From positions 2,749,501 to 2,813,500 of the forward strand of contig CM073331.1 of NCBI GenBank assembly GCA_037043015.1: a stretch of DNA of 64,000 nucleotides, written 5' to 3'. The notes below the pieces were generated by a model, which was given only the letters and a program-made list of their open reading frames with translations, made no database searches and was not told where the DNA came from. This stretch comes from Bryum argenteum. Lineage: Eukaryota > Streptophyta > Bryopsida > Bryales > Bryaceae. The position numbers and the translations under genes are program-made. Positions 9,608-57,795 of the stretch are shown here, piece after piece (position 1 is the stretch's first letter; each line of letters opens with the position of its first letter).

Positions 9608-10190
9608 ATGGCGGAGCCACCCAGGCAGCCTGAGTGCGGGGCGTTGAGGGTGCTGAATTTTTCAATCTTCGATTGGCTCGTACGGCACTTGGATTACAAC
9701 TGCCAAGATGACTCCTTGTCGCCCCCAGTCCCTCCCAATTCCCTCAAGCTTCTCCCCAACTTTTTCAATACTGGTCGGCATCAGCCGAGGTTCAGGACCG
9801 ACTCAAGCCGTTGCCGCCGCACCTCGACTATGGGTTGGAGCCTCAGTACCCGTACCGACTCCCCCTGTGGGCACTGCACTTCAAATATGGGCAGGGGCCG
9901 CATGACCAGCACCCACACCCGGAATGGTCGCTACACTTCTAGAGCAAAGAGACGTTTGAAGATCGGTCCTATCTGATTAAGCTTGAGAAAGTGCCCTTTG
10001 CCTACTTCATCCAGAAGTTCACTATTCAAGGCCTGCCTCTCCTATGATCGTATCGTGACGTCGTCGTTAATTGCATGCCGTTCTCCGATGTCGGCATCAT
10101 CGCTAAGGATGCACACTTGAACTTCTGAGTCAGTGCCGTGTGCAAAGTCTCTCAAGATTACCAGTACATCAACTTGGAGTTAACTTGTGT
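9608..10190 (+). pseudogene. Cluster-family (cystatin-like fold?) pseudogene
   Basis: It starts ATGGCGGAGCC in the family start context and reads LRVLNFSIFDWLVRHLDYNCQ, the family's N-terminal helix. The core continues in other frames: ALHFKYG, then EDRSYLIKLEKVPFAYFIQ and FTIQGLPL, then VSAVCKVSQDYQYINLEL, the last being the C-terminal hairpin. At least two frame changes and several stops (after LHF, after GLPLL and in the hairpin) break it. The linker between helix and core is longer than in the 27.7-kb gene. It is a recognisable but dead member. Confidence 0.75.
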
Positions 10191-10485
10191 CGGCTCTCAA
10201 TGTCGATTTAATCAGTGATCGAGCTGACTCTGACTTCGCGAGCACCATCTTACACAGTCTCTGGAGAACTCAACCTCTCCCCCCCTCCAAAAGCGATTTC
10301 TTCACCGACCTGTTTTCTCAAAGTTATTTTCTCAATGTAAAAGCAAATTGTATTCAAAATATGATATATGTTGAAAACATATCTATCAAGATTCAAATCA
10401 TGAGCACATTGACCTCTCTATGTATGTATATGGATGAGAAATTTAGTAGAAGTAAAAAATGAAAGTAAAATGATATTGTCATACC

Positions 10486-10569
10486 AAAATGTTTACTACT
10501 TAAATCTCAAGTTGAATATATTACTAGTTAAATCTCAAAATAACTTGAGATTTAAGTAGTAAACATTTT
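10486..10569. repeat. Perfect 28-bp inverted repeat with 28-bp spacer
   Basis: Arms 10486-10513 and 10542-10569 are exact inverted copies starting AAAATGTTTACTACTTAAAT. No target duplication was recognised. It could be a small foldback insertion or a hairpin-forming site. Confidence 0.8.
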
Positions 10570-10604
10570 GAGATTTAAAAAGTTAAATGTTAAGTAAGAT
10601 TTAA

Positions 10605-10990
10605 TGTCAACTAACTTAACATTTCCAATTTAATATATTCAACTTAAATCTTCGAGCTTCTAATAAAATTTAAATCTATATTCTATATAAATTTATCATT
10701 TAGAATCTATATTCTATAATTGTTCTTCCAATTTAATATATTCAACTTAAAACTTTGAGCTACTATTATATTTGAATCTACTCTCATCAAGAATCTATAT
10801 TCTGTAATTGCTAAGTTGTTAACGATGGAAAATACAACCTCATAGCAACCTCTAGTGATGGTCTCATTTGTTTTAGATGCTTCTTCTACTCTCACATTCA
10901 AAATACATTGGTTCAATCAAAAAACAAATTAAATTGCTTACAATCTATATTACCAATAACCGAATTGACCAAAAGTACAAAATATCCAAA
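10605..10990. repeat. Direct repeat pair, left copy
   Basis: This stretch matches 11850-12215. Shared blocks are AGAATCTATATTCT, GTTGTTAACGATGGAAAAT, ACAACCTCATA, GATGGTCTCATTTGTTTTA and CCAATAACC.AATTGAC. A shorter tandem unit (TCCAATTTAATATATTCAAC) recurs inside it at about 10625 and 10728. I see no ends that would name the family. Confidence 0.65.
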
Positions 10991-12552: not shown

Positions 12553-12568
12553 CATATAAGACTCACAA

Positions 12569-12846: not shown

Positions 12847-12887
<41 letters not shown>

Positions 12888-13860
12888 AAATCTTTTCTTG
12901 ATTAATTTTGTACTTAGGTTTCCAGGTGACCCAAGTTGAAACTTTTGCCAATCCTACAAGGGCACCCTTCAAAAATTACAAGAGCTAGATTCAAAGTTTT
13001 CTTTGATATTTCAATTTTTTCTTTCAAAATTTGCCAAAATTTGAGATTTTGGAACTTTTTGAATCTCTTTTTTCTTGAAATTCGAAAACTCATGAAGGTA
13101 TATACTCACCGTTCATTTTTCCCCTAAACCATATACAATAAATGTGGTGCATGTTTTACCAAATCCTTCATTTCTACCTTCTTTTAGTATTTAAATTGCA
13201 TGAAGGTTCAAAAAGCAAAATGAGTGTCTAAAATTTTGCATGGGCATGCCCAACTTAGTTATATACATGGAAAAAAATATGAGCTAGATGTTTAAGGTAA
13301 TAAGCATCACGTTTTCCTTTGCACAAAGTCGACTATGTTTATTGAAAAAAAAATTGCATCAACTTTGAATGTTAAGATCTTACAAATGGCTACGATCCAG
13401 CGGTTGAAATTTCAGCCACTACCTCTAATAATAGTTCTCTTTAAGATCATACGGTTGAAAGTTTCAAAAAAGTGTAAAAATATTCTCACACTTCCTAGTT
13501 TACAAGGTGGTATGGAATTGCAATTTTGGAGTTTGGAGCTCACTAAACACCATGGTAGTTTAGGGGTTAAAGACCGCACTGACGCCGTATTGGCCCACGA
13601 ACTCATTCATTACGGGCCGGTGATGAACTACCGCGACCCCCAGTTGTTCCTACACTACTTTTAGAGGGAGGTGATGCTGGGTAACCAGTCCTTCTTGCTG
13701 CAGCTTGAGAAGGAGCCCTTCACCTACATCCTGCACAAGCTCACTGTCCGCACCCTGCCGCTAGACCCGAACGAAGTGGGAACCATTGCTTTTAACCCTC
13801 AAACGTCTAAGGTGACCCGAGGGGTCCTTTTCCAACAGAATCTTCTATGTAGCTCTCAAT
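12569..13860 (+). pseudogene. Cluster-family pseudogene split by a TTAA-flanked transposon
   Basis: Two parts, 12569-12628 and 13571-about 13860, together mirror the intact gene at 19151-19576. ATGGCGGGGATGCAAGCGGG, then GATGAGAGGGCACTTCATGG, lies before the insertion. After it comes DRTDAVLAHELIHYGPVMNY, then an in-frame stop where the paralogue has Gln (HYF*REV), then FLLQLEKEPFTYILHKLTVR and LPLDPNEVGTIAF. The C-terminal hairpin is lost. There is also a TAG in the first part. The usual 5' leader is absent: homology starts only about 8 bp before the ATG. Confidence 0.85.
12633..13566. mobile_element. piggyBac-like non-autonomous element, long class (934 bp)
   Basis: Ends are CCCCTAAACTACCA and TGGTAGTTTAGGGG, with TTAA on both sides (12629-12632 and 13567-13570). 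Comparison with 19151-19576 gives the empty site: GATG-TTAA-AGACCG here against GATC-TCCA-AGACCG there, equal lengths once one TTAA is removed. TTAA is therefore a duplicated 4-bp target. It contains a poly(T) run at 12847-12886 and no transposase. Closest relative is 59682-60636. Confidence 0.85.
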
Positions 13861-13869
13861 GTACTCAAC

Positions 13870-14822
13870 TTTTCACTTATATTTTGATGTCAAACTGGTC
13901 ACCTTCTTCTGATGCATTCAAAAGTGAAATTTTAGAATTCAATCACAATTTGTATGAGTGATTTTGTGCTTTGAAAGGATTGTGGTAGGTAGATTGGGGT
14001 TATAAAATACTTGTAGGAGCTTGCAAGCTCATCATTGATTGGATTATTCATGATGCCCAAGTTCAAAAAGTGCACTATTCATGACGCCCGAGTCCAAAAG
14101 ATGTTGTGATCCAATAGTGGGCTGCCCAAATTCGTATAGCCTGGCGTTTAAGGGTTAAGGATGAGATCGACCTTCCGCACCCCGCTTAATATGTTATAAA
14201 CTTTATACATATCATATGATTGTACCAAAAACATTCACTAAAATACTTTGAATTATGCCACAAATTTAAAACTATTACCTTGCTTTGAAAGAGGGTAGTT
14301 CTGAAAGTAAAACATAAAATTCAGGCCTCAGAATTTAGGGGATGTACCCAGTTTCAGATGCTGAGACAGAATTGACCTACTGTACATTTTTCAATTTTTG
14401 GAAATATAACTTCTAAATAATCGATAATTCTCAAGAAGAATATCAAAGGTCGTGTAGGTCGCATGAGGGTAAAACTTTGCATCGACATGTTCGTGACTCA
14501 CCTAGGAACAAGAATTTCATATTCCAATTTACTATTGGGCTCCCGAAAAACTTCACTCCCTTTTTGCAACAAGGGAAAAAAACATTGTTTCCAAGTCTTG
14601 ACATCAAGATCTTACAAACGATGAGGAATTTGAACCTAAGATTTTTTGCACATATACACATAAAAGTAAGGTACTAGATCCTACTGCTACGTACTTCAAA
14701 ACTTGCCATAATTTAAAACTTTTCATCTTGCTTAAAAAGAGGGCAGTTTTGAGGCCACTCTCCTTTAGGGGTCAAAAAGTGTAGTGGAGAAAGATGACAA
14801 GCACAGGTTACGCACATACTAA
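13870..14822. other. Degenerate repeat sequence, no gene
   Basis: Parts of 14430-14770 resemble the interior of the long TTAA elements (AAGATCTTACAAA, GATGAGG.AATTTGAA, and a CTTTAGGGGTCAAA end near 14755). A GTTTAAGGGTTAA end lies near 14150. These are probably one or two decayed copies, but I could not pair their ends. Confidence 0.4.
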
Positions 14823-18709: not shown

Positions 18710-19150
18710 CAGACTGCAGACCGGAAGTGCAACCAACTGCTGTTGTTGTTTCTAGTATGAGTTCCTTCGACATAGCGATAATAATTCTAGTGTCATTAGC
18801 AGTATTAGTTCGTGAGTAGTTAGATTGCAGGTAAGTTGAAGGGCCTATAAATACAGCTTCGTTCGGTTCGACTACGATATGAATGAAACATTGTTGCCCT
18901 TTTTCAGATCAAGCATTGCCGAGAACGCTAGGGATTCACGAGGCAGCGAAGTTCACGAGGCAGGGACATTTCGAATTTGTAGGAGGGATGTGAAATTAAT
19001 TTTCTGGTAAGATTTTTAATGGAGCATCTCGTTGTCTCGACATTCTTGCTATTTCAAGAGCGGTGAGATAGTGGTCACGGTCGCCATTTGTGCCGGGAGA
19101 AGTGTTTGAGAACTGTTTGTGTGCAGTAGCATTCGGAACGAGCTCTGACA
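18710..19150 (+). promoter_or_regulatory. 5' leader of the 19.15-kb gene
   Basis: Elements in order are CGGAAGTGCAACCAACT...TTTCTAGTATGAGTT, TTCGGTTCGACTACGATATG, GATCAAGCATTGCCGAG, two CACGAGGCAG blocks, and a donor CTG|GTAAGATTTTT at 19007. Next come a probable acceptor TTTCAAG at about 19059 and GGTCACGGTCGCC at 19073-19085, then GAGCTCTGACA before the ATG. Stops in all frames make it untranslated. The donor and acceptor suggest a short 5' UTR intron. Confidence 0.65.
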
Positions 19151-19576
19151 ATGGCGGCGTGGCTGCATGCGGGGGGCATTATTACCGACTGGATGAGAGG
19201 GCACTTCATGGATCTCCAAGACCGAACTGACGCCGTAATGGCCCACCAACTCATTGACTATGGGCCGGTGATGAACTACGACGGCCACCAGTTGTTCCCT
19301 CTTTACTTTCAGAGGGAGGTGATTCTGGGCAACCGGCCCTTCTTGCTGCAGCTTGAGAAGATGCCCTTCACCAACTTCCTGCACAAGCTCACTGTCCGCG
19401 GCCTGCCTCTAGACCCGAACGAAGAGGGAATGATCGCTTCTGAGTTTTATGTCAACCTTCAACACGCCGCTTTTTTGGGTGGAACCTTCCACGTGGTGCA
19501 CAGAGTCTCGGAGGAGTCTCTCAGCTTCGTCATGACTCGCGCCACCACTCCATATTACGTCACCTTTCCACCATAA
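19151..19576 (+). CDS. Cluster-family small protein, 141 aa (cystatin-like fold suspected)
   Basis: The start ATGGCGGCG is chosen because the same ATGGCG context and the box 65 nt upstream recur in the paralogues. Residues 1-35 contain an amphipathic helix segment (ITDWMRGHFMDLQDRTDAV). The core is FLLQLEKMPFTNFLHKLTVR followed by GLPLDPNEEG. The C-terminal strand pair is GGTFHVVHRVSEESLSFVMT. No signal peptide or membrane segment is evident. The helix-plus-beta-sheet order and the hydrophobic 'QLEKxPF...KLTVRxLPL' hairpin recall cystatin-like folds, but there is no QxVxG inhibitory loop, so protease inhibition should not be assumed. It is intact, and its paralogue at 12569 is dead. Confidence 0.65.
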   Translation: MAAWLHAGGIITDWMRGHFMDLQDRTDAVMAHQLIDYGPVMNYDGHQLFPLYFQREVILGNRPFLLQLEKMPFTNFLHKLTVRGLPLDPNEEGMIASEFYVNLQHAAFLGGTFHVVHRVSEESLSFVMTRATTPYYVTFPP

Positions 19577-24368: not shown

Positions 24369-24599
24369 CAAACCCCGGCCCATCCTAACTATAAATTCCT
24401 CTTCTCTACACCATTACTAATAAATAGGACACTATAGTTTAGTCCAGTTTACAAGTATTTGTAGCGTTTAGGGTCTATTCCAGAAAGGGGTGAGTAGTTT
24501 TGCTCTTTTATCTCTTTGTCCTGTGGCCATTGAGGTAAAGACATTACAAACAGACGTTGTATTCACGCCAATGTTCGATTGGGAAGGTTGGAGTTCTTA

Positions 24600-24718
24600 T
24601 ATACATACATACATACATACATACATACATACATACATACATACATACATACATACATACATACATACATACATACATACATACATACATACATACATAC
24701 ATACATACATACATACAT
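24600..24718. repeat. (ATAC)n microsatellite, about 30 units
   Basis: An uninterrupted tetranucleotide array lies directly upstream of the leader of the 25.4-kb gene. The Ile-His-Thr-Tyr frames read from it are artefacts. Confidence 0.95.
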
Positions 24719-24739
24719 CATGTACGATACACAACTAGT

Positions 24740-25399
24740 GCAGACCTTAGTTTTTCCTGGGGTGTGTTCCGTGAAGACTTTTCGGAAAGTTCAATTGCAT
24801 CACTCCCTACACGTCGATCGACCTCTATTGTTCACGTCCTTTATTCAGATCACATGCAACTTGGTCGTTCACTTGGTTTAACGATCGACGGGAATTCAAA
24901 AGGCTGCGAGGCTTTGGAGACGTGCAACTAAGTCTCATTTCTGGTATGCGTCTTTCCGACATGACAGTCATTCGAATCTCTGTCTGTAGGCCCCAGCAGA
25001 ATTAGTTTGTTGTTGAATGCGTAGTTGTGTTTGCAGGTGAATTCAGAGCGCATAGGTCAAGTTTTATCTCCACTCTATCGATCGGTTCGACCTCGAAATC
25101 AAGCATTGGTACAATTATTCCGAGATCCAGTATTCACGAGGTGGCAGGGTTCTCGAGGCAGGGGTATTTCAACTTCGTAGGCGGGACGTGCAACCAAACT
25201 ATTGTTGTAGTTATTGGGTAAGAGTTCGTATGATCTGTGCTACTGAAATTTCTCTCATGAAGCTTCTCGTCTCGGATGAAGTTGGTGAATGGTAGTATTT
25301 GGAGTCGTTGAAATGACTGAGGTTCTAAAGAATCTGGTCACGGTCGCCATCTTGTGTGGGTTGATTGGAGATTTCGGTCTGCAGAATTGGTAGCTCGAT
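24740..25399 (+). promoter_or_regulatory. 5' leader of the 25.4-kb gene
   Basis: It contains TGTTCCGTGAAG, ACGTCGATCGACCTC, a GAGGCTTTGGAGACGTGCAA block with donor-like CTG|GTATGCG, CGATCGGTTCGACCTCGA, ATCAAGCATTGG, and two CACGAGG/CTCGAGG blocks ending in donor TTGG|GTAAGAGTT at 25218. The GGTCACGGTCGCC box lies at 25336-25348, 51 nt before the ATG. The order matches the leaders at 18.7 and 27.1 kb. Confidence 0.65.
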
Positions 25400-26287
25400 A
25401 TGGCGCCGCCACGACCGCAAGCAAACGGCGATGTGCACGAGAACGGCCATTTGGAGCTGCCGCCAAGGCACGAGAACGGCGATTTCGTGAGGCACGAGAA
25501 CGGCAATGGTGCGGTGCCGTCATTCCACGGGAATGGCGATGCTGCGCACGAGAACGGCGATATTACGTCGCCGCCAAGGTACGAGAACGGCGACGAAGCG
25601 GACGAGAACGGCGATTCTGCGAGGCACGAGAACGGCAATGGTGCGATGGTGTTATTCCACGGGATTGACGATGCTGCGTACGAGAACGAGGGTGATGCGT
25701 CGCCGCCAGGGTACGAGTACACTGACGTTGTGTTGGAGAGCGGCATTCTTGTGCCGCGGCTGTCGTACGTGCTGCAAGTGTTCGAGAACAGCGACGCTGA
25801 GCTGCCGGCTGAGGATGAGGACCGCCATATTGCGCTGCAACCAGGGGAGAACGAGTTGTCCAGGGTGATGGATTACGCTCTCCAGGAGTGGCAGCCACGA
25901 CACATGGAACAGGAATGCGAAACAGACGCCGTGCTCGAAGAGGATTTCTTCCGGTACCCTCTAGGCTCTCGGTGTCCGCCGACGCCCGTGCCCGACGGCT
26001 TTTTCCCGACGTGGCCGCTGCATTTCCAGAGCGTAACGAAAATCAACGGTCGCCGCTACTTGATGCAGCTCGAGAAAAGGCCGTTCGATTATTCCATGCA
26101 CAAGTTCCTTGTTCGCTCCCTGCCTTTCCCGGACTGGGCGGACATCACTTATGATTTATTCGAGGAAGAGGAAAATCCAAATGGTTTTATGCGCTCAACC
26201 TATCGCAAAAAGAGAATAATCTCTGTGGATCACGAGTACCTCGTCAGGCTGGAGATCACTCGCGTCTACTCTCCACACCGTACCTGA
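25400..26287 (+). CDS. Cluster-family protein with an N-terminal Glu-Asn-Gly repeat region, 295 aa
   Basis: The start ATGGCGCCGCC is in the family context. Residues 8-105 are a low-complexity region built on HENG/ENGD units. It includes a 44-residue tandem duplication (132 bp apart at DNA level, about 25491 and 25623), each copy reading HENGNGA, FHG and DAA.EN. Residues 152-178 (ELSRVMDYALQEWQPRHMEQ) match the family helix. PLHFQSVTKINGRRYLMQLE at 206-225 and KRPFDYSMHKFLVRSLPF follow, ending in DHEYLVRLEITRV, the family hairpin. It is about twice the length of its paralogues, entirely through the N-terminal insert. The insert is acidic and probably disordered. No signal peptide is seen. Function is unknown. 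Confidence 0.7.
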   Translation: MAPPRPQANGDVHENGHLELPPRHENGDFVRHENGNGAVPSFHGNGDAAHENGDITSPPRYENGDEADENGDSARHENGNGAMVLFHGIDDAAYENEGDASPPGYEYTDVVLESGILVPRLSYVLQVFENSDAELPAEDEDRHIALQPGENELSRVMDYALQEWQPRHMEQECETDAVLEEDFFRYPLGSRCPPTPVPDGFFPTWPLHFQSVTKINGRRYLMQLEKRPFDYSMHKFLVRSLPFPDWADITYDLFEEEENPNGFMRSTYRKKRIISVDHEYLVRLEITRVYSPHRT

Positions 26288-27735: not shown

Positions 27736-28236
27736 ATGGAGCCGCCGAACAGGGTCAGGAGGGTACTGGATCGCATTTTCTTCAAATGGCTCGGAGTGCA
27801 CATGGACCTAAATTGCCGAATCGATATGGCGTTGCCCAACGAACTCTTGGAATATCACCCGCAGCACGGTCTCCAACTGCAACCATTCTCCATTGAGCGT
27901 ATGGAACAGCACCAACGTCAGCGGGCGCCGCTGCACTTTCAGAGCATGGAGATTTACGAAGATCGGAGCTACTTGGTGACGCTGGAGAAAGCACCGTACG
28001 TCTTCTGCCTTCACAAGCTCACTGTGCGCAACGTGCCGCTTTCGCACGAGCCCTCCAGTGCCATGATTGGTAACACCAAGGTCGAGGAAGTTTACAAGTT
28101 ACTGCATTGCCCTCAATGCATTTATCTTTTCTATTCAATCCAAACCCCTTTACTGCAACTTTTGCCTCTATGGCCAAAGGCGCGAAGCGCAGCCAAATCT
28201 TTTTTCGTGTTCTTTTTTCAGGAGTTCCGCGGTTAG
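27736..28236 (+). CDS. Cluster-family protein, C-terminus replaced (166 aa)
   Basis: The start ATGGAGCCGCC sits after the family box and GAGCTGTCAAG. The helix reads RRVLDRIFFKWLGVHMDLNC and the core PLHFQSMEIYEDRSYLVTLE, KAPYVFCLHKLTVRNVPL. After SSAMIGNTKVEEVYKL the sequence leaves the family pattern and runs through unrelated codons to the stop. The C-terminal hairpin (GFY.VV...YLVSL) is missing. Either the last exon is elsewhere or the copy is decaying. The upstream in-frame ATG-less codons are leader. Confidence 0.55.
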   Translation: MEPPNRVRRVLDRIFFKWLGVHMDLNCRIDMALPNELLEYHPQHGLQLQPFSIERMEQHQRQRAPLHFQSMEIYEDRSYLVTLEKAPYVFCLHKLTVRNVPLSHEPSSAMIGNTKVEEVYKLLHCPQCIYLFYSIQTPLLQLLPLWPKARSAAKSFFVFFFQEFRG

Positions 28237-30739: not shown

Positions 30740-32339
30740 CAGTGACCTTCAAAACTGTCCCAATGTTTGTACATGTTACATTCAAAAAATAATGTAGGTA
30801 AGAGAAACTCATGGAATGGAATGTAGTAAATTTATTGAAATAGTACATACAATGTACTAATTGATTACAAAAATTCCAACAAAATTGAAGCGCTCAATGA
30901 GAAAGGAAAAAAACCTAAAGCTACTCTGTACATTGGTACACTTTTGAACGTCCAACATGGAAATTCCTCACCACTTTATCCATTTTCCTCTGGATTTTAA
31001 TACAGCTGCTATTCGTCTGGGCATTGATTCTATAAGTCTCTTGCAATCATCAACAAAGTGATAGAAGGGAAGGTTTCTTCCACACGAGACCATAATTCAA
31101 GTATCCCTTTTGGTGGTGTGTCATATCGATTCAATCTCCTTTTCAAAATTGCCCATAGATTTTCTATAGGATTCAAATCGAGACCGAAAGCAAGGCTAAG
31201 ATAAGACACCAAAAGGTTGCCTAGAAAACCATTGTTTCATACTATTCTTGGTATGTATAGGTGCATTATCCTGTTGAAATATGACTCCCGATGGATCTAA
31301 ATTATATTTTTGAATTGTACCATGGAGATGCTCCTCCAAGATTTTTTGATAACCATGCCGATTGAGGCGACCTTCAATTCTACACATCATGCCGAGATCC
31401 ATGTATACACATACATCCCCATATCATCACGTAACCACCACCATGCTTAATGATCGGAATAACGGTCCGCTCCGAAAGTTCTGTGGATCACGAACCCAAC
31501 ACCAAACTCTCCCATCTCAAGAAAATGTTAATTTTAGTCTCATCCGAGAATATCACGTGACTCGGTCATCAATAGTATAGTCTTTGATACTTTTTCGGCA
31601 AATTCTAAGCGAGCCCTAATATTCTTGCGTGACAAATGTGGTTTCTTTTCTTTCACATGCGATTGCAAACCTGCTCTACAAAGTCCACGGCGACAAGAAC
31701 TTCATTGACTTGTACTCCAAAAACTTCTTGCACATGTTTAGTAGCTTCTCTTGCGGTGAGACACCTTCCCTCTTGTTATACTAGTTACACAAGACCGCTC
31801 CATTGCACTTGTCAACTTGCGTGGTCTACCTCCAACTAAAAGCTTTGCATCCGGAAAATGCTTCTTACGGAGCCTCTGTACACTTGATATACCAACATGC
31901 AAAGAATTTGCTATCTCTCTCACACTACAACCTTTTTGAAGCAAAGAGAGTATACCTTGTTGCTTCCCTGGGACAATGGTCTCACCATTTTCACTTGTGA
32001 AGCTAAACACGAAAAAGAAACAAATATATGACGCAAGAAGAACAAATACACACAATGTAACACAAACCAAGCAATTCACAATGCATGTACACTTCACTTG
32101 CTATGCATACAAGATTCACTCATATGTACTTTCAAAACTGTCCCAATGAAGAGAAAATATCTAGAGCTTCAATTCATGCACATACATGTAGAGACAAGTG
32201 GTAAGCCTTGCTCCTTGATTACCTTACTAATGATAGTATGTAACTAAATTGATGCCATGTCAGTCTAGCATGCAATCACTATGTGGTGACTCACCAAACT
32301 TTCAAATTATAAACATTGGGACACTTTTGAAGGTCACTG
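30740..32339 (-). mobile_element. Tc1/mariner-type DNA transposon, 1.6 kb, decayed
   Basis: Terminal inverted repeats of about 28 bp begin CAGTGACCTTCAAAA (left) and end TTTTGAAGGTCACTG (right), with TA on both sides (30738-30739 and 32340-32341). Related subterminal motifs occur inside, near 30930 (CACTTTTGAACGTCC) and 32130 (ACTTTCAAAACTGTCCCAAT), an IR/DR-like layout. The transposase lies on the - strand. Confidence 0.85.
31030..32010 (-). pseudogene. Tc1-like transposase (DDE_3) pseudogene
   Basis: In order on the - strand: a helix-turn-helix (GILSLLQKGCSVREIANSLH, then VGISSVQRLRKKHF), a GRPRKLT motif, the first catalytic region FSDETKINIF (near 31545), HGGGYVMIWG-like sequence, RIEGRLNRHGYQKILEEHL, the second Asp in FQQDNAPIHT (near 31260), and the Glu in LDLNPIENLW (near 31160). 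Spacing from the second Asp to the Glu is close to the 34 of Tc1 elements. Frames change at least at about 31205 and 31740, and there are several stops in between, so it is inactive. Confidence 0.85.
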
Positions 32340-34165: not shown

Positions 34166-34289
34166 CAAAACAAAGAGACATATGTAAAAATAATAATCAT
34201 ATGAGAAAATGGTAAACACGGGATGATTCTATAAAAGTACCATATAAAGAGCTTTCCCGTCGGGACAATGGGTACATTGCTAGTCAAAC

Positions 34290-36110: not shown

Positions 36111-36504
36111 AAAGTTCAATAACTCGGGCTATAATTTTCTCTAAATTTGCATTTGGTTGAAATCATTAACGTATACTTTTGTATAAATTCTTTTACTTAT
36201 TGTAAAATTTTTAAAAAAAAATCTTTTACTTATTGTAAAATTACAAAAAAGTACTTGAAATCAGTCAGGTTGCCTTGGTCTAAATTTAAGAATTACTTAT
36301 TGTCCAATCATATATAAAGCCTTGAAGAAGTTAGGTGTAGAAATAATGAGTTTTCTCTAAACTTGGAACTTTACTCGGGTTGGGAATATATTGATTTATA
36401 TGTTTGTTACAATTTGTTATTTTTAAGCTCTGATGAGGTAGTGTAGGCCAATAACTTACTTGAAGGAGATGCAATAGAAAGTAATTGAAAGTAATGAAGA
36501 GCAA
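36111..36504. other. Upstream region of the F-box gene
   Basis: AT-rich, with a local duplication of AAAATCTTTTACTTATTG (36205 and 36220 area). No promoter element could be fixed. Confidence 0.35.
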
Positions 36505-37905
36505 ATGGAGAGTATAAACTTAAGAAAGAGATTGAAGCATGAAAACTTTGAAGAGAACAAAAAGAAACTTGATTCTAATCTTTGGAAGAAACTCCCTTGT
36601 GCACTTCATGACTTTGTGTTTTCTCAACTTCCTATCAATGAAATATGTCGCTTACGATGTTTGAGTAGAACATGGAAGTATAAGACTCCAAATACTCCTT
36701 TTTTTACTCAAAAATGTGAGGAAGCTTATCCAATAATGTTGTTTTTGATAACAAGACATTTACATGGATATATATTGGTGAGAACGTTGGACGTCAACCG
36801 CAACAAGTGGTATTTATACAAATTTGAAATTCTTTGTAAGCACAGTTATAATACAAGAAGAATGGGGTTGATATGTTCTTCAACTATCGGTGAAGCTGAT
36901 TGTAGTCCACAAATCTACCTTATAAATCCATTGACAAGAGATTTGTATCACTTGCCTCGTATACCGAACGAATGGAAACTTAACCCCTAAAGATCAAAGA
37001 AAGCCGAAATGGCTTTTTGGGGTTTCCGCAGGAAAAAAAGTCAGCCAACTTTGACCTTTATAATCTCAAAATCGGAAAAAAATTAACGGTTCAAATTTGA
37101 CATATGGGTTTACGGTCAAGTTCACTTCAAGATCATACGGTTGGATCTTCTAATTAATGCTTAGATTGAGTTTTTTCGGGCCTGAAGTAGAAGAGGGTCC
37201 TTTGTGATAATTTAGACAATTTTGTATCAAGGATCTTTAGGGGTTAAACAGAGACTTGATTTGGTTGAGAAGCATGACAATTGTGTGGTGGTAAGCATGA
37301 GAGAAGAAGATATACATTCGAATTATACAAGAGAATATGTATATGATCTTTTGAAAAAAAACACAAAAGAGTGGACCTTATCACAACCTAACAATGAAAA
37401 AATGTATTTTCACGAACTCGAACGCTTGGCCTCTCATGTAATAACGCAAAATCCCCACTATCAACCGGAATTCATCGTCGTTGTAGCTTATTATAGCCAA
37501 TCATTATTTGTATTGTGGAAAACATCGTGTGAAGAGGATTCGAATATTCCATCAATAACAACGAAGTTTTATATCACTGAGCATCATATAAACACTAAAA
37601 ACTTCTCTATAGAAGACAAAGTTCACAATTGCAATCCATTGGAGGTGGAGTTGCAGCCTTATAATGGAATAAATAATTTGGCATACATGTATGCATGCGA
37701 AGGATATTTGATGATAGTCATTATAACAATATTAAGAGATGAGAGACTTAGGAAAGAGAGTGCATGACTTTATGACTTGACAACATGCATATGGACTACG
37801 AGTGATTTTCGGGGATTGCACTTCAATGATGATCCTGACCGTGAAGGATATCTTTTAAGATCAAAATGGAAGTTAGAACATAGCTTGCAAGATATTGTTG
37901 GATGA
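36505..37905 (+). pseudogene. F-box gene interrupted by a TTAA-flanked transposon
   Basis: The coding parts are 36505-36983 and 37248 onward. Residues about 28-62 (LWKKLPCALHDFVFSQLPIN, EICRLRCLSRTWK) are an F-box, the SKP1-binding module of SCF ubiquitin ligases. The rest resembles the beta-propeller-like C-terminal region of plant F-box proteins, with YLINPLTRDLYHLPRIPNEW as a typical blade. Leaving one TTAA in place of the 264-bp insertion and its duplication keeps the frame (EWKL then KQRLDLVEKHDNC). The frame runs on to a TGA at 37765-37767. Beyond that TGA the same frame stays open for about 45 codons (LYDLTTCIWTTSDFRG ... LEHSLQDIVG), so the TGA probably replaced a sense codon. The copy is therefore disabled twice. 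Confidence 0.8.
36984..37243. mobile_element. piggyBac-like MITE, short class (260 bp), inside the F-box gene
   Basis: Ends are CCCCTAAAGATC and GATCTTTAGGGG, with TTAA on both sides (36980-36983 and 37244-37247). The interior (AAAAAAGTCAGCC.ACTTTGACC, GGTTCAAATTTGACATATGG) matches the copies at 229 and 63348. Its length plus TTAA is a multiple of three, but it carries a stop at once (CCC-TAA). Confidence 0.85.
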
Positions 37906-43360: not shown

Positions 43361-43798
43361 TCAATGGCGTCTGCTCCGGAGGCTGATGACATACTGGCGA
43401 TCCTTAGTAATTTCAAGGAACGCGTAGTAGAAGCCGGACTGATCATAATAGGTACCATCGTCTCTGATGGTGTCTGGCTGGTTCAGATCGAGCAGGCACA
43501 TGGCAGTGAAGTTAAGTACGACAAAATCGCCGGGCCTTTTCTGAAGCTGCAGAAAGTAAGGCCGATTGTTCATGAACTTCACGCATTGATAGTGCAGCGG
43601 ACTTTGCAGGTTTGGGGGAGTATCCATCGGCCTCTGACGGTATTCCCGGAGCTTCTGCCGAACTGATTCCGGAGAAATCTGCTCATACGGGATAAACTCC
43701 TTGGGCGACACGGCGTGATCTTGGGCGTTGCTGGGCATATGCCGATCGAGCCAGTCGTCAACGAACGACAGCACCTCGCACACTCGGCATGGCGCCAT
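43361..43798 (-). CDS. Cluster-family small protein, 145 aa
   Basis: The start ATGGCGCCATG fits the family context, 54 nt after the inverted family box (43853-43865). The helix is VLSFVDDWLDRHMPSNAQDH. The core is SPLHYQCVKFMNNRPYFLQL, then QKRPGDFVVLNFTAMCLLDL. The hairpin is SGFYYAFLEITKDRQYVISL. The frame is whole and ends LRSRRH. The linker between helix and core (residues about 33-62) is longer than in the 53-kb gene. No signal peptide or membrane segment. Role unknown; a cystatin-like fold is inferred from strand order only. Confidence 0.7.
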   Translation of the reverse strand: MAPCRVCEVLSFVDDWLDRHMPSNAQDHAVSPKEFIPYEQISPESVRQKLREYRQRPMDTPPNLQSPLHYQCVKFMNNRPYFLQLQKRPGDFVVLNFTAMCLLDLNQPDTIRDDGTYYDQSGFYYAFLEITKDRQYVISLRSRRH

Positions 43799-44700
43799 TC
43801 TGAGCTATGAACTCTGCACACAGAAGTCCCTCATCAATCCATTGTGCACGATGGCAACCGTGACAAGTATCTGTCCGGACACAAACATAACAACTTATGG
43901 ACTCCAGTCGGCGAAACAACAATACTACTTCGAAGGCTACAACACCAGAAAGTACACAACTATACCAGAAAGAGCAGTCGTTCCGTTCCTGAAAATCGAG
44001 ATTCTCCGGCTTTGTTGAGACGCGAAATTTTAGCAACCAATCAAGCTGCGGATTCAAACGACCTGGTTATTAAACGGAATTTAATGCTATGTGCATGGAA
44101 ACACCTGAAAACCGATCGGCTAGAACCGTGACTGTAATTGGAGTCACCGTGCTGTCGACTCTGTAGTACACACATCAACTCACGTACTATGTTGGAGACG
44201 GGCCGAGAATCTCGTACATCAACTACAAACCAGATTTGGAAAACATTATTTCAGCTCACGATCTCCGTTCGAAACAGCCAGAAGTTTCCCAAGAGAGACT
44301 ACATTAGATGGAAGGAAATCTCACCGCAGCTTTATGAACAGGTCGTTAGCGATCTGAAAATGGCAACAACTACTGTCAAACACTAAGAGCAAATCGATGG
44401 AGTAGTTCGCAACTACATTATTTTACAGATCTCACTTTTCACCTCCTAAACCAGCTCACGGACTTCAATCGAAACGACGAGAAACAGCAATTTAACCACG
44501 CCGGAGAAACTCTTACCAGAAACTGGACCAGATTGGTTCCACGTACCGCGTGCTGTATCGAAATCTCCGTGCCTCGTGAAACACCCCGCCCTGACCTGAA
44601 ATTTGGCAGCAGAAATAAATCCGAATTCGAACCGATCGACTCGATACACAATAATTGGACTTTACGTGCTCTGCGTACGATTGAAGGTAACTATTTTTGA
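43799..44700 (-). promoter_or_regulatory. 5' leader of the 43.8-kb gene
   Basis: On the - strand it contains GTCACGGTTGCCAT before the start, donor GTAAGAGTTTC at 44516, GCGTGGAACCAATC-like sequence, TTCACGAGGCACGGAGATTT and a CAGGGCGGGGTGTTTCACG block. It corresponds in reverse to the + strand leaders. Open frames inside are not conserved. Confidence 0.6.
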
Positions 44701-45270: not shown

Positions 45271-45852
45271 ATTTTTGCTCTTCGTATATGAGCCATTGTT
45301 CTTCATATATTTATTTCATTAGGTGGTTTGTTTGGTGTTCTTTGAATGCTTGGTTGAAGGTGTGATTGATATGCCGAAGAAGTGTTTCTATTTCTTGTCT
45401 TTCAAATTCACTTATAAATAAGTCAACTATGTCTTCACTTAGGCATTCCCCTGCAAGGCTTTGAGGGAAGCACATTTTGATATGTTTTGATAATCACAAT
45501 CAAAAACAAAACAAAACCATGCTCTAATACCATGTAAGAAGAAACAAAGTGCACGAGAAAAACAAAGAAGATGAAGTGATGTGTATTATTTACATTATGA
45601 AGCGATGTCATAGTCATTGTTTCTAATTATATAAAGCAGATGACCTCTCTATGTAACGTAAAGGTAAAATGGTCTACATGTGTGATTGTTGAGTCTATTT
45701 TATGATTAAGTTAATATGTACTTATAAGTAATTTGTGTTTTAATGATTTAATTAGGGGTTAACTAATCATGTACAGAAGCAATCGAAGCTCATGACTAAT
45801 CGATGGATTACTAATGGATGGATGGATAAATTACTTCACAATACACATGTGA
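45271..45852. other. No feature recognised
   Basis: AT-rich sequence without supported genes. Confidence 0.35.
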
Positions 45853-45965
45853 TTCATCCACTCAGTTCATCCACTCGGTTCATCCACTCAGTTCATCCAC
45901 TCGGTTCATCCACTCAGTTCATCCACTCAGTTCATCCACTCGGTTCATCCACTCAGTTCATCCAG
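45853..45965. repeat. 13-bp minisatellite upstream of the 47.0-kb gene
   Basis: Eight head-to-tail copies of TTCATCCACTCRG plus a partial ninth. Variants ending CAG and CGG partly alternate. A single related unit (TTCATCCACGCGGCTC) follows at about 45989, and another (TTCATCCAAGCGGCTTC) occurs at 50370 in a sister leader, so the array grew from a promoter-proximal sequence. Confidence 0.9.
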
Positions 45966-46012
45966 TTCTATCGCCTCTGTACAACCATTTCATCCACGCG
46001 GCTCAAGGTGTG

Positions 46013-46019
46013 TATAAAA
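46013..46019 (+). promoter_or_regulatory. Candidate TATA box for the 47.0-kb gene
   Basis: TATAAAA within GTGTGTATAAAATACTGC. It is followed about 30 nt later by ACTCTCCACTCGATCGATTTC, which is shared with the leaders at 48.6 and 50.4 kb and would be a plausible start-site region. Confidence 0.45.
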
Positions 46020-46029
46020 TACTGCTCGA

Positions 46030-47025
46030 TGATCACATTTGAGTTACTCTCCACTCGATCGATTTCAGAAATCAATGTCGAATTACAGATCAATTGCAGC
46101 TTCGTCCATTGTGGCTACTTCTTCCAATCGCGACCTCGTCCTGCTTATGGATTGACGATTGGCTTATGAACGTACTAGGCTGGCGGCGGATTTCAATTGT
46201 GCATGTATGTAGCTAGTATGTGTAAGTAAAGTGCTGTACTTAACTTTCTGATATTGGTATCGTCGTGTCTGAGGTGTTGATTTCGCCGTCATGATGGGTC
46301 CTGGCAGAATGGAATTCTCCAGTAGTTTCGTTATCAGGTCACATTGCGCCTCCAGTCGAGTGATTCAAATTTGATGTCACATTCTGCTGCCATTTTTTAT
46401 GTCAGCCATTCACGAGGCAGGGGGACTCACGAGTCGGCGGATTTCGATGCTCTAGGCGGAACGTGGAACCAAATCGGTACAGTTTCTAGTAAGAGTTTCA
46501 CTGAGCTGGTCCTACAGATTCTCTCCTGATGTTTCCCGCCGTCTGGAAAAAAGCTCTTCAGTTACTGGATATGGAGATGAAAAGAGAGCTTGGTGAATTG
46601 AGATCAGTTTCCAGTTGATCGACTTGAGCACTCTCAGATTTCACTAGTTGTTGTCATTTGCAGATTACTTGCATCTTGTTCATCAACACTAAAACCTCTT
46701 TGTGCGGTCGACAGTATTCGAATTCACGAGGTCAGGAGAATGAGGTCGACCTTTGTGCTCCATCAGATGGTGAGAGATCCTACAAATATATATTTAATCT
46801 ACAAGTATAATTATGTAAATTCACTAGGTCAGGAGATGCCGACCGTAACGGTTGTGCTCCATCGTCTGGTAAGAAATTCTACAATTATATCTAATGTCCG
46901 TGGTGAAGCTTCTCGCCGTGGAGATATCGTGGTTGAAGATATTAATGGTCGAGTTGGTGATCATGGTCGCTGTCTTACATTGATTAACGAGAGTGTTCTG
47001 TGAGCACCATTGATAGATGAGATAC
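46030..47025 (+). promoter_or_regulatory. 5' leader of the 47.0-kb gene
   Basis: It includes CTCGATCGATTTCAG, ATTCACGAGGCAGGGGGACTC with donor CTAG|TAAGAGTTTC (46489), and two near-repeats (46720-46790 and 46820-46880) reading TTCACGAGGTCAGGAGA and TTGTGCTCCATC. The degenerate box GATCATGGTCGC is at about 46958. Two more CACGAGG blocks than elsewhere suggest internal duplication. Confidence 0.6.
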
Positions 47026-47379
47026 ATGGAACCGTGGGTTCATGACAGCCATGTCGAGAGGGTGATGATATACATCATAGAGTGGCTTTGGCGGCAGGAG
47101 TTTTACAATGTATATGGAGGCTGGTGCCACGCGAGGATCAATGTGGGCATCGGCAATCGGCAATACTTGTTTCAGATTGAAACAGTGCCAGGCTTCTGGT
47201 TGCACAGGCTCAATGTGCAGTGGTTGCGAGGAGTCTTGGACCCGCAATTTCGTAGGCCGAATTCTACAGTCGTATTTACCCGTAAATTTGGCAATACATA
47301 CTTCTTGGTGTATGAAATGACTCCGGACTGCCAATGCCTCATCAGTCTGGACTTTTCACGCATACGCGCATATGACTGA
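47026..47379 (+). CDS. Cluster-family small protein, 117 aa
   Basis: Start placed at ATGGAACCG, the Kozak-like second ATG. An ATG three codons upstream is possible. The helix VERVMIYIIEWLWRQEFYNV lies at the N-terminus, then GNRQYLFQIETVPGFWLHRL, NVQWLRGVLDPQF, and the hairpin NTYFLVYEMTPDCQCLISLD ending FSRIRAYD. It is the shortest whole member, because the helix-core linker is reduced. It has a partial duplicate 1.5 kb downstream. Function unknown. Confidence 0.65.
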   Translation: MEPWVHDSHVERVMIYIIEWLWRQEFYNVYGGWCHARINVGIGNRQYLFQIETVPGFWLHRLNVQWLRGVLDPQFRRPNSTVVFTRKFGNTYFLVYEMTPDCQCLISLDFSRIRAYD

Positions 47380-47960: not shown

Positions 47961-48656
47961 TAAACTTCAACCCCGAAATATTTAAACCTTCTTTTAGCTG
48001 AAAAACATGTTCTCAAAAATAGTGTCATAGATAAAATGAAAGTAAGCTATTTTGAACTAGATCTCAACCATAAAATCTTGTAGTGTAGGCTTAGTGTAGG
48101 TTATTCACATTTTGGATGAATATATATGAGGTTTGTAGTTTTGTACACCATGAAAACAAGATTCAAACTGGAAATCAATGCAATTGAACAAACAAATTTG
48201 AAATGGAATGGTGCATAAAGAAAAAACAACAGCTCTTCAAAGGTCATGTATTTCAGTATCTTCTCAATTTGTGCAGATACAAACACATCACTTCAAATCC
48301 AATGCCTAAGATATTTAATTTAGAAATATTTCAACTACAAAGTTGATGGTATAATTTATCTCAAGATCATGATAGAGCCTTAATTCCGTTAAAATGACCG
48401 TATTCGTTGTGCAATTTTGCTAAAGCTTTTTTATAAGGAGAAGAAATGTGTGGATGGAAAAAATAGACGGCATCTTTACTCTTCACCTTGCTTATTCGGC
48501 TGCCAAAAATATTTCCTTACAGAGCGGATGGGCAATAAGGAACTAGGGAATCCACCAATTTACCTCACTTCATGGATGGGCACATACATACTTCTCAGCC
48601 AGTCCATTCGGTCACCCTCTACTCGTCTGATCGATTTCCGTTCTGTAGGCAATCAG
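47961..48656. other. Spacer with MITE end and a short leader-like piece
   Basis: An AATTCCGTTAAAATGACC end of the 'CCGTTAAAATGGC' MITE lies near 48381. Bases 48595-48655 repeat the leader start (GTCCATTCGGTCACCCTCTA, TCTGATCGATTTCCGTTC) seen at 50405-50460. Confidence 0.5.
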
Positions 48657-48883
48657 CACTACTAGTTTCAGCTTGAAACAGTGCCCACCTTCTGGTTGCA
48701 CAGGCTCAATGTGCAGTGGTTGCGAGAATTCCCGGACTCGCAATTTCCAAGGCCGAATTCTACCGTCGTAATTACCCGTATATTTCACTATACATACCGC
48801 TTGATGTTAAGAATGACTCAGAACTACGAATACCTCAACAGCCTGGACTTTTCACGCATACGCCCATATGACAATTGAACACT
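48657..48883 (+). pseudogene. Truncated duplicate of the 47.0-kb gene
   Basis: It lacks the ATG and the N-terminal helix: leader-type sequence is joined directly to FQLETVPTFWLHRLNVQWLR, and the frame continues to NYEYLNSLDFSRIRPYDN. The frame is open but has no start of its own. Whether the fused leader splices to another ATG cannot be seen. Confidence 0.75.
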
Positions 48884-52609: not shown

Positions 52610-53017
52610 TCAGATGCGTGTGATATCCAAGCTGACGAGATACTCGTAATCCTCGGCCACCTCAGAGACCACTTTGTAGAACCCGGAAGTATGGTCGACG
52701 TTTTTGTTGGAGACGATGGTGGGGAAGAAATCCGGCGACTGCTTGTCGCGGAGTGGCAGCCAGCGGACCGTGAGCCTCTTCATGAGGAAGACGAAGGGCT
52801 CCTTGACAAGCTCGAGTTCGTAGTGTCGACCGTGGATGACCTCCACGCACTTGAAATGGAGCGGTCTCTGCTGGTACTGAAAGTGTTGCACGGGCTCCAC
52901 GGCGTCGGCTTGGCAATTGAATTCCATGTGCCGGTTCAGCCAGTCAAGGTAAACGTAGTTGAGCACCTTGGCAACGTTGCTGACCTCCTTCGACGTCGAC
53001 GGGAGCGCCATACTCAT
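52610..53017 (-). CDS. Cluster-family small protein, 135 aa
   Basis: Start at ATGAGTATGGCG; MALPS three codons in is equally possible. The frame is open further upstream, into leader sequence (VEVTVALLHALIG), as it is in the 57.8-kb sister, so an N-terminal extension cannot be excluded. The helix reads NVAKVLNYVYLDWLNRHMEF, followed by NCQADAV. The core is RPLHFKCVEVIHGRHYELEL, VKEPFVFLMKRLTVRWLPL. The hairpin is SGFYKVVSEVAEDYEYLVSL, ending DITRI. This is the clearest consensus copy. The helix, four-strand order and central hairpin resemble cystatin-like folds (inference); no catalytic residues are evident. Confidence 0.75.
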   Translation of the reverse strand: MSMALPSTSKEVSNVAKVLNYVYLDWLNRHMEFNCQADAVEPVQHFQYQQRPLHFKCVEVIHGRHYELELVKEPFVFLMKRLTVRWLPLRDKQSPDFFPTIVSNKNVDHTSGFYKVVSEVAEDYEYLVSLDITRI

Positions 53018-54410: not shown

Positions 54411-54860
54411 ACTCCTTGGCATTTAAACCCTACAAATCGAAAATTTAGGGGCTCTTTACCCCTCCCCTCTCTTGCCCCCCAGAAAAGCTCGTAGCACTTA
54501 TGTAGAACTTATTTACAGGGATCCTGAAGGGATCCGCTGGCGGTTGGCTTTGTGGCTATCAAGCCTTGCTACTAATGGCACACCGAGTGGCCACAAGGTT
54601 TGGTTATCATTAAGGTAATGGAATTGAAGTTGGATCTCCTTGGCATTTTAAGCCTATACATTAAAAATTAGGGGGATCTTAACCCCTCCCCTCCCTTGCC
54701 GCTGAGAAACGCTTGTAGCACTTATGTAGCACTTATTTTAAAGGGATCCAGGGGGATCCGCTGGCCGTTGGCTTTGTGGCTATCAAGCCTTGCTACTAAT
54801 GGCACGCAGAGTGGGCACAAGGTTTGGTTATCATTAAGGTAATGGAATTGAAGTTGGAAA
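54411..54860. repeat. Tandem duplication of about 230 bp, two copies
   Basis: Each copy runs CTCCTTGGCA...TTTACCCCTCCCC...GGGATCC.CTGGC.GTTGGCTTTGTGGC...AAGGTTTGGTTATCATTAAG...TGGAATTGAAGTTGGA. A third, partial match is at 58825-58945. Confidence 0.8.
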
Positions 54861-56699
54861 ACTAAGACATTTGATCAGAGTGAACAATTATTTAGAGTTT
54901 GTGATTCAATGACGGTAGTTTAAACTCTGGACACATTTTTTGTTTGATGATTTGATTTTATCAAGGTATTATGAGTTTCTAGTAGTAATTAGAGCTCTAG
55001 GGTGTGTCACTTAAGCAAGTGAATCTGTGAAGGTATAAGTAATTCAAGGTTGCTAGGAACATTTAATAAGTTCATAATAGTATGTACATTGTGTTGAATA
55101 TGTATTTAAGAATATACTACAATAAAATATATAATTAATAAATCTCATTCATCTATTGCTTGATACTTGATAAGTTGGCTCTTCTCTTAAAGTTAAGAAT
55201 CCAACTTAATTATGTCTGTTGAAGGGATTTTTATTTAAGGCCGGTTTGGTGATTCTTCTAGAAACTATTTCTTTTTAAAATTTACAAACTTTTACACCAA
55301 AAATTGCTAAGAAGTTGTTGTTATACTTATCATGGGCACTTTGTGATAAAAAGGTGATAAGAATTAAAGGAGCCTTTGATTTTTTACTTAAACACTTGTC
55401 ATTAATACAATTATTAGCATAGATAATTGGTGAAATTTGAAATATCACAAACTTGAGAAAAGTTTATCACTTACCTCTATGGTCGTAGTGCAGAATATGC
55501 ACTCTAAAATTTTTGATTATATTACTTCACCCCGTCATTAGGGGTCATGGGTGCTTGCACACGTGTTTAAAAAAGGAGAAACAATCAAGTTTTATCATAT
55601 TATTTTCATAGGCCATTTGTCATGTTGCAACTTGCAAAAGCCATCAACTTGATACAAAAGTAGATTTTAGTGCCAATCATTAACGGCTTACAACTTTCAA
55701 ATCAGCATTGCACATAGGAATGATAAGATGGCTTCGTTGAAAGCTGGACCATTGAAATTAACCATCATCCAGTGGCGCATTCTGTGCCTTTTGCTTAGTG
55801 CAAGAAACTGGTTTGTATACGTTAACAACTCAGGGATCTTATATCAATTATGAACTTTTTGTTCTTAACATTTAGAGTTTTAGACTTGCCCAATTTTGTT
55901 CTTCAAACGCAAAAGTTTCTATTCAACTTGATTTTCAAGCGAGGGGACTTATCTAAGCCCAATTTTTCCATAATTTCCGATCATCAAACTCAACCTAATG
56001 CCAAACTTGCCAATCAAATTCTACAAATTCTACAAATTTGTAAGTAATCGCACTTACCCAAGCCCAATGCTGCCCAATCTTTAATTTGACGTTGACAATA
56101 TCATATGCAAACAATAACTGCTTCATACTTCACCAATAAATACCCTCTTCTTTCCATTCTTCTTTTTTTACACCCTTACCTACTTGATTTGGTAACGATG
56201 CCCCTCTCGAGTTCTAGAAGAAGTTTCATCCCAATGTACCAAGTAGAATACCATACACACATGACACGTCTACCTTAGAATAAAAACTACATAAAAGACA
56301 TAGTACAAATCCTTCATTTCACATCATACGTACCGATTCTAATTCTATATTTGTGCAAACTGGTCACAGCTTACATCTCTATGGATTGATAATTACAAAC
56401 ATGCCAATTTCTCTGACTCCGTAATTGTGAAGGCAAAACAAAACACAACATAGACTGCAAGCTCATGCTTACTGCAAATGCATAATTATACTCGAGATGG
56501 TCGTCTAACACGTTTTCATATTTCCAAGAATGTCAGTTTACAACAATACAACGGGACTGCACACAAAAGACAACCATGAACCTGATTCTACGCTACAATA
56601 ACAACCAGACACTCAGGTACTACCATTGCGGCACCCAACACATCGATATGCAGAATATAGCAGATCTCCTCGTTGCAGAAACAATCGGGTGTCGAGTTC
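54861..56699. other. AT-rich intergenic stretch
   Basis: No supported gene or recognised repeat. Confidence 0.4.
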
Positions 56700-57110
56700 A
56701 GTAGCGTGTCATCTCCATGCTGACAAGATACTGATAGTCCTTGGCCATCTCAGAAACAACAGTTGTCGCCGTTCCTGATGGAGATGATGGTAGGGATGGA
56801 GAAGAGCCAGCGCACCGTGAGTCTCTTCAGGAGGAAGACGATCGGGTACTTTTCAAGCTCCAGATCCTACTGTTGGCCGTGGATGATCTCCACGCACTTC
56901 ACATTCTGCTGATATTGATAAGGTTGCTCAGGCCCTGCGGCGTTGGCTTAGCACTGTTAGCAGTCGAATTCCATGTGCCGGGTGAGCCAGTCATGGAGGA
57001 CCTTGGCTACGTTTCTGTCTTTCTTCGATGACAACGTCATCCTCACATGTAAGAGAAAAAAATCACTAATCAAGAAATGCAAGAAGGCAACTGTAATGTG
57101 AACCCCAGCA
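56700..57110 (-). pseudogene. Cluster-family pseudogene
   Basis: On the - strand it reads MTLSSKKDRNVAKVLHDWLT, RHMEFDC then a stop, VKCVEIIHG, a stop within the strand that should read RHYELELEK, then YPIVFLLKRLTVRWL, and in another frame VSEMAKDYQYLVSMEMTRY. The LHF motif and part of the linker are lost. It is a sister of the 53.0- and 57.8-kb genes, with upstream leader (ITVAFLHFLI). Confidence 0.8.
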
Positions 57111-57315
57111 ATCCAAGAGCAGCTTTCTACACAATAACTCACCTCAACAATATATTCAATGACCTTGACAATATATATTCAAGTCGGTCTCACAGGGTTT
57201 TTTTATTTCCAAGAATGCTAATTTACAACAACAGAGTGAGACTGCACTCGAAGGTAACAATCAATCTGATACGAATCTACAATGTCCAGCAGACAGGGTG
57301 CGACCTTTCCGGCAC

Positions 57316-57795
57316 CTAATTAATATGCAGAAGTTCATCGTCTGCCTTTGGATGTTGAATCACAATCATAAAAATAATGAATCGGGTTAAGTAGCGTGTA
57401 ATCTCCAAGCTGACGAGATACTGGAAATCTTCTGCCACCTCAGAGACAACGTTGTAGAAGCCGGAGAACTGCTCGACGTCTTTGTTGGAAACGATGGTGG
57501 GGAAGAATTGGGGCGACTCCTCGTCGCGGAGTGGCAGCCAACGGACCGTGAGCTTCTTCATGAGGAAGACGATCGGCTCCTTTTCAAGCTCCAGTTCGTA
57601 GTGTCTGTTGTGGATGACCTTTACGCACTTGAAACGCAGAGGTCTCTGCTGCCAATGGAAGAGTTGATGCATACCCACGGCGTCCGCTCGGCAGTCGAAT
57701 TGCATGTGCCGGGTGAGCCAGTCGAAGAGGACGTAGCTGACCACCTTGGCTACGTTGCTGTCCTCCTTCCACGCCGAAGGGAGCCCCATACTCAT
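57316..57795 (-). CDS. Cluster-family small protein, 159 aa
   Basis: Start at ATGAGTATGGGG, as in the 53-kb sister. Helix NVAKVVSYVLFDWLTRHMQF, then DCRADAV. Core RPLRFKCVKVIHNRHYELEL, EKEPIVFLMKKLTVRWLPL. Hairpin SGFYNVVSEVAEDFQYLVSL, then EITRY. About 25 further residues (LTRFIIFMIVIQHPKADDEL) replace the usual stop after the hairpin. DNA identity with the 53-kb gene is high over the whole frame. Intact; function unknown. Confidence 0.75.
   Translation of the reverse strand: MSMGLPSAWKEDSNVAKVVSYVLFDWLTRHMQFDCRADAVGMHQLFHWQQRPLRFKCVKVIHNRHYELELEKEPIVFLMKKLTVRWLPLRDEESPQFFPTIVSNKDVEQFSGFYNVVSEVAEDFQYLVSLEITRYLTRFIIFMIVIQHPKADDELLHIN

Follow-up and report, generated by a model that had tools for sequence, protein, structure and literature searches.

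An unnamed family of small moss proteins with a shared leader and unequal rates of coding divergence

A 64-kb stretch of the genome of the moss Bryum argenteum (G000:C11:2749501-2813500, referred to below as the window) contains eleven related copies of a gene for a small protein, some of them whole and some broken. The question raised by this locus is what kind of family this is, and what has made its members so different from each other. We read it as a moss family of soluble interaction proteins, some young branches of which are under diversifying selection, and give this reading a probability of about 0.45. The proteins would bind a partner that itself changes, either a parasite factor or the host target of one, and selection would favour new binding surfaces. 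Copies would arise through tandem and segmental duplication, recombination would swap leader and coding modules between them, and frameshifts would disable them. We infer the binding role; that immune conflict or parasites cause the diversification is a guess, as is the "defence or reproductive" role offered in the first-pass annotation of the window, which fits the selection pattern. The family described here has no name, many of its members share a leader, and there is at least one case of a module swap; the evolutionary pattern itself is known.

The genome (258.8 Mb, 25 contigs) was searched with eight member proteins and with the DNA of one leader, and the loci were counted by hand, excluding two weak matches (C8:12614552, E-value 0.07, and C7:6483925, E-value 0.06). 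As a lower bound, this gives at least about 42 loci on seven contigs: 24 on C11, nine on C8, two each on C4, C6, C7 and C9, and one on C5. A cluster of 21 of the 42 lies in 266 kb at C11:2.759-3.026 Mb, and the presence of 24 loci on a contig of only 7.0 Mb (binomial P 5e-27) is due to tandem duplication. About 19 of the 42 are intact from ATG to stop, as judged by reading, with a few such as C11:2978962 left unjudged. The regions C11:2943820-2949728 and C7:341644-347531 each contain two broken family copies with equal match scores and nearly equal spacing (4,627 and 4,616 bases), which looks like a recent segmental duplication across contigs. The birth-and-death pattern that the first-pass annotation had proposed from the window is also seen genome-wide, in fragments, frameshifted copies, tandem and dispersed loci and a recent between-contig duplication.

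Upstream of many members there is a related stretch of the form CACGAGGC...TTCGA...GCAGGCGGGACGTGGAAC...CAGTTTCT(A/G), followed by GTAAGAG-like donors, and many members have an acceptor resembling TGTGTGCAG followed by AGTTGATAG directly before the ATG. Intact genes probably have one or two short leader exons in front of the coding exon, with splicing predicted from these signals. The nearest upstream in-frame stop is found at -12 to -3 in 13 of 25 genes and at -21 to -156 in the other 12; in genes having such a stop 3' of the acceptor, the leader contributes no coding sequence. In L041 and L042 (loci are labelled in this way throughout), GTG stands at the position of the ATG of L045. All three genes have an upstream-exon ATG 11 or 12 codons back that is in phase in 3 of 3 if spliced at the TAG before the ATG or GTG, and the upstream coding lengths differ by one whole codon. 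The GTG may be internal if the upstream ATG is used; otherwise the start has been lost. A 301-base probe from the leader of L060 has nine genomic matches, each followed by family coding DNA, and the idea of the leader as a widespread repeat was dropped for that reason (9 of 9 matches adjoin family coding DNA). The same probe found L088 (G000:C8:6648750-6650400), which was missed by all eight protein searches; it has the leader and a very divergent core, and a helix end could not be placed in the open frame of the core. For the C8/C6 group (L006, L007, L008 and L021), the upstream comparison gave no match to other members. A common origin of the two leader exons was examined in ten genes with 500 mononucleotide shuffles each. 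Duplication of one exon from the other passed at 19 or fewer of 500 in five genes (L017 0, L088 0, L012 1, L040 2, L011 19) and failed in five (L061 28, L055 54, L045 142, L060 208, L041 234).

Leader and coding sequence do not always share a history. Over 286 bases, the leader of L055 has 98% identity with the L060 leader, and its upstream likeness to L061 extends to about 3 bases before the ATG; compared with L060, it differs by about 2% far upstream and by 14% over the last 100 bases. The coding sequences of L055 and L060 can barely be aligned (205/446 differences), and that of L055 groups with L015 and L016; its protein is 76% identical to L016 across query residues 1-99. L055 is, as read from these alignments, a chimera with the leader of one subfamily and the coding sequence of another. 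In a similar case, L017 has an L060-type leader (81%) and a coding sequence that matches L011 (40%); it is absent among the 22 protein matches of L060.

Coding divergence was compared with that of the 500 bases upstream in eleven pairs, nine of them from three young subfamilies. In seven of the nine young pairs the coding part has diverged more than the 5' side (P<0.05), as in L012/L040 (coding 67/336, upstream 22/473, P 1.5e-11), L041/L045 (69/360 and 25/488, P 1.7e-10) and L060/L061 (46/429 and 19/495, P 5e-5). L012 and L040 are only 2.2 kb apart, and the distance between their coding sequences is about the same as that of either to L011. Downstream of this pair, 4/141 aligned sites differ within the first 145 bases, with 8 gap columns. 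Further on, tandem repeats of about 70 bases follow the stops of both genes, with copy numbers that differ between the neighbours; the 3' 500 bases give 8/295 or 22/292 with about 410 gap columns, and 40/196 and 123/344 with repeat units out of register. Alike flanks around divergent coding parts suggest that conversion of the flanks spared the coding part in this pair.

Nonsynonymous (dN) and synonymous (dS) divergence was estimated with NG86 for 21 pairs, and a separate codon model was tested against a dN/dS ratio (omega) of 1 in five subfamilies. The NG86 ratios are 1.43-2.15 in L011/L012/L040, 1.19-1.82 in L041/L042/L045 and 0.80-1.40 in L014/L060/L061. They are 0.36-0.45 in L001/L002/L003, 0.22-0.71 in the C8/C6 group (including the broken L021) and 0.38-0.55 in L055/L016/L015. 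L011, L012 and L040 have kept their frames and ATG at dN 0.21-0.28 and dS 0.12-0.18, and the codon model gives them an omega of 2.20, with twice the log-likelihood difference (2dlnL) at 6.55 and an uncorrected P of 0.011, or about 0.05 after Bonferroni correction over five groups. Tested jointly, the three young groups reach P 0.019 with 3 degrees of freedom. Two old subfamilies are constrained, at omega 0.25 (2dlnL 34.2) and 0.29 (45.0). The first-pass annotation had described the family as fast-evolving, and this is right for some subfamilies (omega 1.2-2.2, one significantly above 1) and wrong for others (0.25-0.29). It had also named a dN/dS of about 1 together with a lack of transcription in all copies as a result that would speak against its reading, and on the dN/dS side this is not what the copies show. 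A likeness exists to snake venom phospholipases A2, in which flanks and leader are likewise conserved and the coding sequence is accelerated; the moss family differs in being from a plant, without a clear secretion signal, with a swap between leader and coding sequence and with constrained old subfamilies.

Most members have 115-150 residues, and the conserved reading frame lies in a single exon of each intact gene. AlphaFold models of two window copies (those at 52613 and 47017) have the same element order, one helix and six strands. In the predicted product, an amphipathic helix is followed by a linker, whose length varies greatly, and an antiparallel sheet of six strands. The hairpin of strands 2 and 3 is conserved (NRxYxLxLEKxP...LTVxWLP), and the other strands, the helix end and the linker vary among members. 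Variable positions make up 15/67 in strands 2-3 and 46/80 in strands 1, 4 and 5 (P 2e-5); this contrast was picked post hoc from the variability map, and two of three groups show it significantly on their own. Expansions near the linker are rich in glutamine in L013 and in proline in L055. In 22 members, the highest N-terminal hydropathy window is at about 1.8, a crude sign against signal peptides; the products appear to have no clear secretion signal, and we infer an intracellular location.

The absence of a named family for these proteins, as stated in the first-pass annotation, holds in Pfam, NCBIfam and the PDB sequences, where no convincing match was found; a Pfam scan of the 22 members at E≤0.5 gave only four stray single-member matches, the best being FANCL_d1 at E 0.047. 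For neither model did Foldseek find a PDB match at E≤0.001 (best 0.52 and 0.05), nor did it find one among viral models for the first model, the one searched there (best 0.027). No similar moss family was found in a literature search, which is weak evidence given partial coverage and a family without a name. The UTRA effector-binding domain of the GntR family, or chorismate-lyase fold, may be among the closest known systems. The cystatin/monellin-like UPF0725/DUF626 proteins of Arabidopsis and their relatives are likewise a lineage-specific expanded family of small plant proteins with an unclear role; the comparison with them is the Pfam scan of 22 members, with its four stray matches.

How far does the evidence carry the reading of soluble interaction proteins with diversifying young branches? 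Several results weigh against it. The coding excess is absent in L011/L012 (P 0.36) and L041/L042 (P 0.39), and the old pair L001/L003 is reversed (P 0.048). The 3' figure of L012/L040 depends on the alignment and ranges from 1/200 (one tandem-repeat alignment) to 123/344. Synonymous divergence, too, is above that of the flanks in L012/L040 and L041/L045, so gene conversion of the flanks or import of coding DNA contributes. Without the linker, the omega of L011/L012/L040 drops to 1.60 (P 0.16), and the remaining two young subfamilies, at 1.83 (2dlnL 3.11) and 1.18 (0.29), reach P of about 0.08 and 0.6 alone; the latter is L014/L060/L061, where triples with L087 give 1.28-1.69 and all four on a star tree 1.27, none of them significant. 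L055 has one 19-residue hydrophobic window at 1.81. Finally, part of the pattern could come from relaxed selection. A rival account is a decaying orphan family, whose duplicated copies drift under weak constraint while gene conversion between neighbours homogenises the flanks and mimics divergence centred on the coding part. The raised synonymous divergence agrees with this, as do the more than half of 42 loci that are broken, partial or unjudged, the GTG in L041 and L042 where L045 has ATG, and an omega near 1 in L014/L060/L061. However, the GTG may be internal, given the in-phase upstream-exon ATG in all three genes, and in both old subfamilies constraint is strong (2dlnL 34 and 45 in the test against omega 1). 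L011, L012 and L040 retain frames and ATG despite their dN of 0.21-0.28 and dS of 0.12-0.18, and in L012/L040 divergence is low on either side and not within the coding part, which is unexpected under chance conversion. We consider such decay somewhat unlikely as the explanation.

Other explanations concern what the family does or how it spreads. A family for reproduction or haploid conflict, such as gamete recognition or sex-linked conflict, with its cluster on a small chromosome, would account for the 24 of 42 loci on the 7.0-Mb C11, and reproductive proteins share the selection pattern; but crude hydropathy gives no clear secretion signal, copies are found on six further contigs, and C11 as a sex chromosome is without support here, so this is improbable. 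Still less probable is that a mobile element spreads the gene between chromosomes as cargo. Very similar copies do occur on C11 and C7, and the leader travels along with the gene, but the C11/C7 pair shares two copies at spacings of 4,627 and 4,616, which looks like segmental duplication; this assessment was made without a search for terminal repeats or transposases. The first-pass annotation had itself suggested a cystatin-like fold, while remarking that the QxVxG inhibitory loop is lacking. The latter is correct (0/22 members), and the former is not supported. According to PMC5085774 and PMC2474614, QxVxG sits in the first inhibitory hairpin of cystatins. The genome's own phytocystatin exons, above the Pfam cut-off on C4, C5 and C9, have it in 3 of 3 cases (QVVQG, QVVQG, QVVAG). 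A LARFAV-like helix motif was found in 0 of 22 members, using a regular expression run on the members alone. The cystatin Pfam profile matched none of seven proteins at E≤1 and none of 22 members at E≤0.5, and hhalign of the family against the three phytocystatin exons gave a probability of 0.6%, with limited power as these are fragments of 52-59 residues. Cystatins are absent among the Foldseek matches listed for both models, which by itself does not exclude the fold; the predicted fold has a helix and six strands, whereas cystatins have a helix on a four-strand sheet. Phytocystatins (Pfam PF16845, SQAPI) thus resemble the family in being small plant proteins with a helix and then an antiparallel sheet, and differ in QxVxG, LARFAV, strand number and the lack of any profile similarity. 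Cystatin identity was dropped, as Pfam, motif, profile comparison and fold search all gave no support. A divergent cystatin that inhibits cysteine proteases via other loops would fit the size and the helix-then-sheet order, but in view of these comparisons it is the least credible of the explanations considered.

Returning to interaction proteins under diversifying selection, a bolder form of that reading is a moss-restricted intracellular recognition repertoire with an undescribed helix-plus-six-strand fold, where the conserved spliced leader would be an interchangeable module joined to fast-diversifying coding modules, much as variable-protein repertoires are built from cassettes outside plants; we regard this as unlikely. 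Which genes of mosses are caught up in evolutionary conflict has, to our knowledge, hardly been established. The leader DNA, as a family marker that catches even L088, provides a ready list of candidates, and the coding-centred divergence makes diversifying selection testable by population sequencing. A new fold, should it be confirmed as such, would be an additional small scaffold tolerant of heavy surface change.

Within the window, a profile from 15 members was run against all stop-to-stop frames (per-domain E≤0.01). It returned the eleven copies previously annotated at 9608-57795 and none besides, and the earlier tally is also correct: six copies are whole, four are broken, and the one at 27736 has a replaced C-terminus. 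The best domain E-values are 4e-32 to 5e-56 for the seven longest copies, and a reversed-frame control with the same profile gave a single match at E 0.34. These values are partly circular because seven window copies are among the 15 profile members, so the independent proof of kinship is a single-protein search of the genome, with 19 matches at E≤0.01 and a best non-self E of 5e-60. The copies and their upstream exons are as follows, with splicing predicted from sequence signals.

9608-10041, forward strand: broken copy with a frameshift, helix piece at 9608-9775 and core piece at 9946-10041; an acceptor-like TTTGCAG followed by AGTTGATAG lies directly upstream.
13560-13874, forward strand: broken copy, profile match at 13668-13874 plus a preceding piece from 13560.
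18935-19004, forward strand: putative leader-like exon of the 19151 copy, ending in TTTTCTG followed by GTAAGAT.
19151-19573, forward strand: whole copy, 141 residues.
25133-25217, forward strand: putative leader-like exon of the 25400 copy.
25400-26284, forward strand: whole copy, 295 residues, with an N-terminal extension of ENGD repeats.
27736-28233, forward strand: copy with the C-terminal hairpin replaced beyond about residue 120.
43364-43798, reverse strand: whole copy, 145 residues, of the subfamily of L060, L061 and L087.
44334-44615, reverse strand: 5' leader of the 43364 copy, with 88% identity to the probe from the leader of L060.
46320-46490, forward strand: putative 5' leader exon 1 of the 47017 copy, ending in CAGTTTCTA followed by GTAAGAG.
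46836-46868, forward strand: possible coding start for the 47017 copy, 11 codons beginning with ATG, in phase if spliced at the TAG directly before that copy, as also in L041 and L042.
47017-47376, forward strand: whole copy, 120 residues, source of the second structure model.
48642-48872, forward strand: partial copy without the helix and with one TAG, profile match at 48666-48860.
52613-53011, reverse strand: whole copy, 133 residues, source of the first structure model.
56701-57037, reverse strand: broken copy with several stops and frameshifts, profile match at 56701-57019 in three pieces.
57319-57789, reverse strand: whole copy, 157 residues, extending 24 codons beyond the usual stop position.

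The broken copy at 13560-13874 is nearest to the 19151 copy (71% amino acid identity across 78 residues, one TAG). The extension of the 25400 copy has about 144 residues, with ENGD-type repeats at 25400-25830, and the 47017 copy may have its start in an upstream exon.

An Rfam scan of the window gave no match at gathering scores. Judged by eye, the neighbouring features include a proline/histidine-rich open reading frame resembling a heavy-metal-associated isoprenylated plant protein (3591-4364, reverse strand), a fragment like the helix-turn-helix part of a Tc1/mariner transposase (31738-32100, reverse strand) and an F-box-like gene in two open frames (36478-37767, forward strand). Open frames made of short repeats are found at 24534-24931, 33748-34398 and 45756-46169 (YIHT; lysine/alanine or its reverse; HPLGSSTQFIHSV). 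Elsewhere in the genome, the only LEAFY gene found consists of two matches 66 bases apart on C5, reading KMRDYVHCYALHC and GAWCQACYYPLV. With Asp312 and Cys345, the marks of type II, this gene points to a bryopsid moss as the most likely host. According to passages of PMC6588583, LEAFY types are set by sites 312, 345 and 387, Bryopsida mosses have type II, and one liverwort has type II alongside type I.

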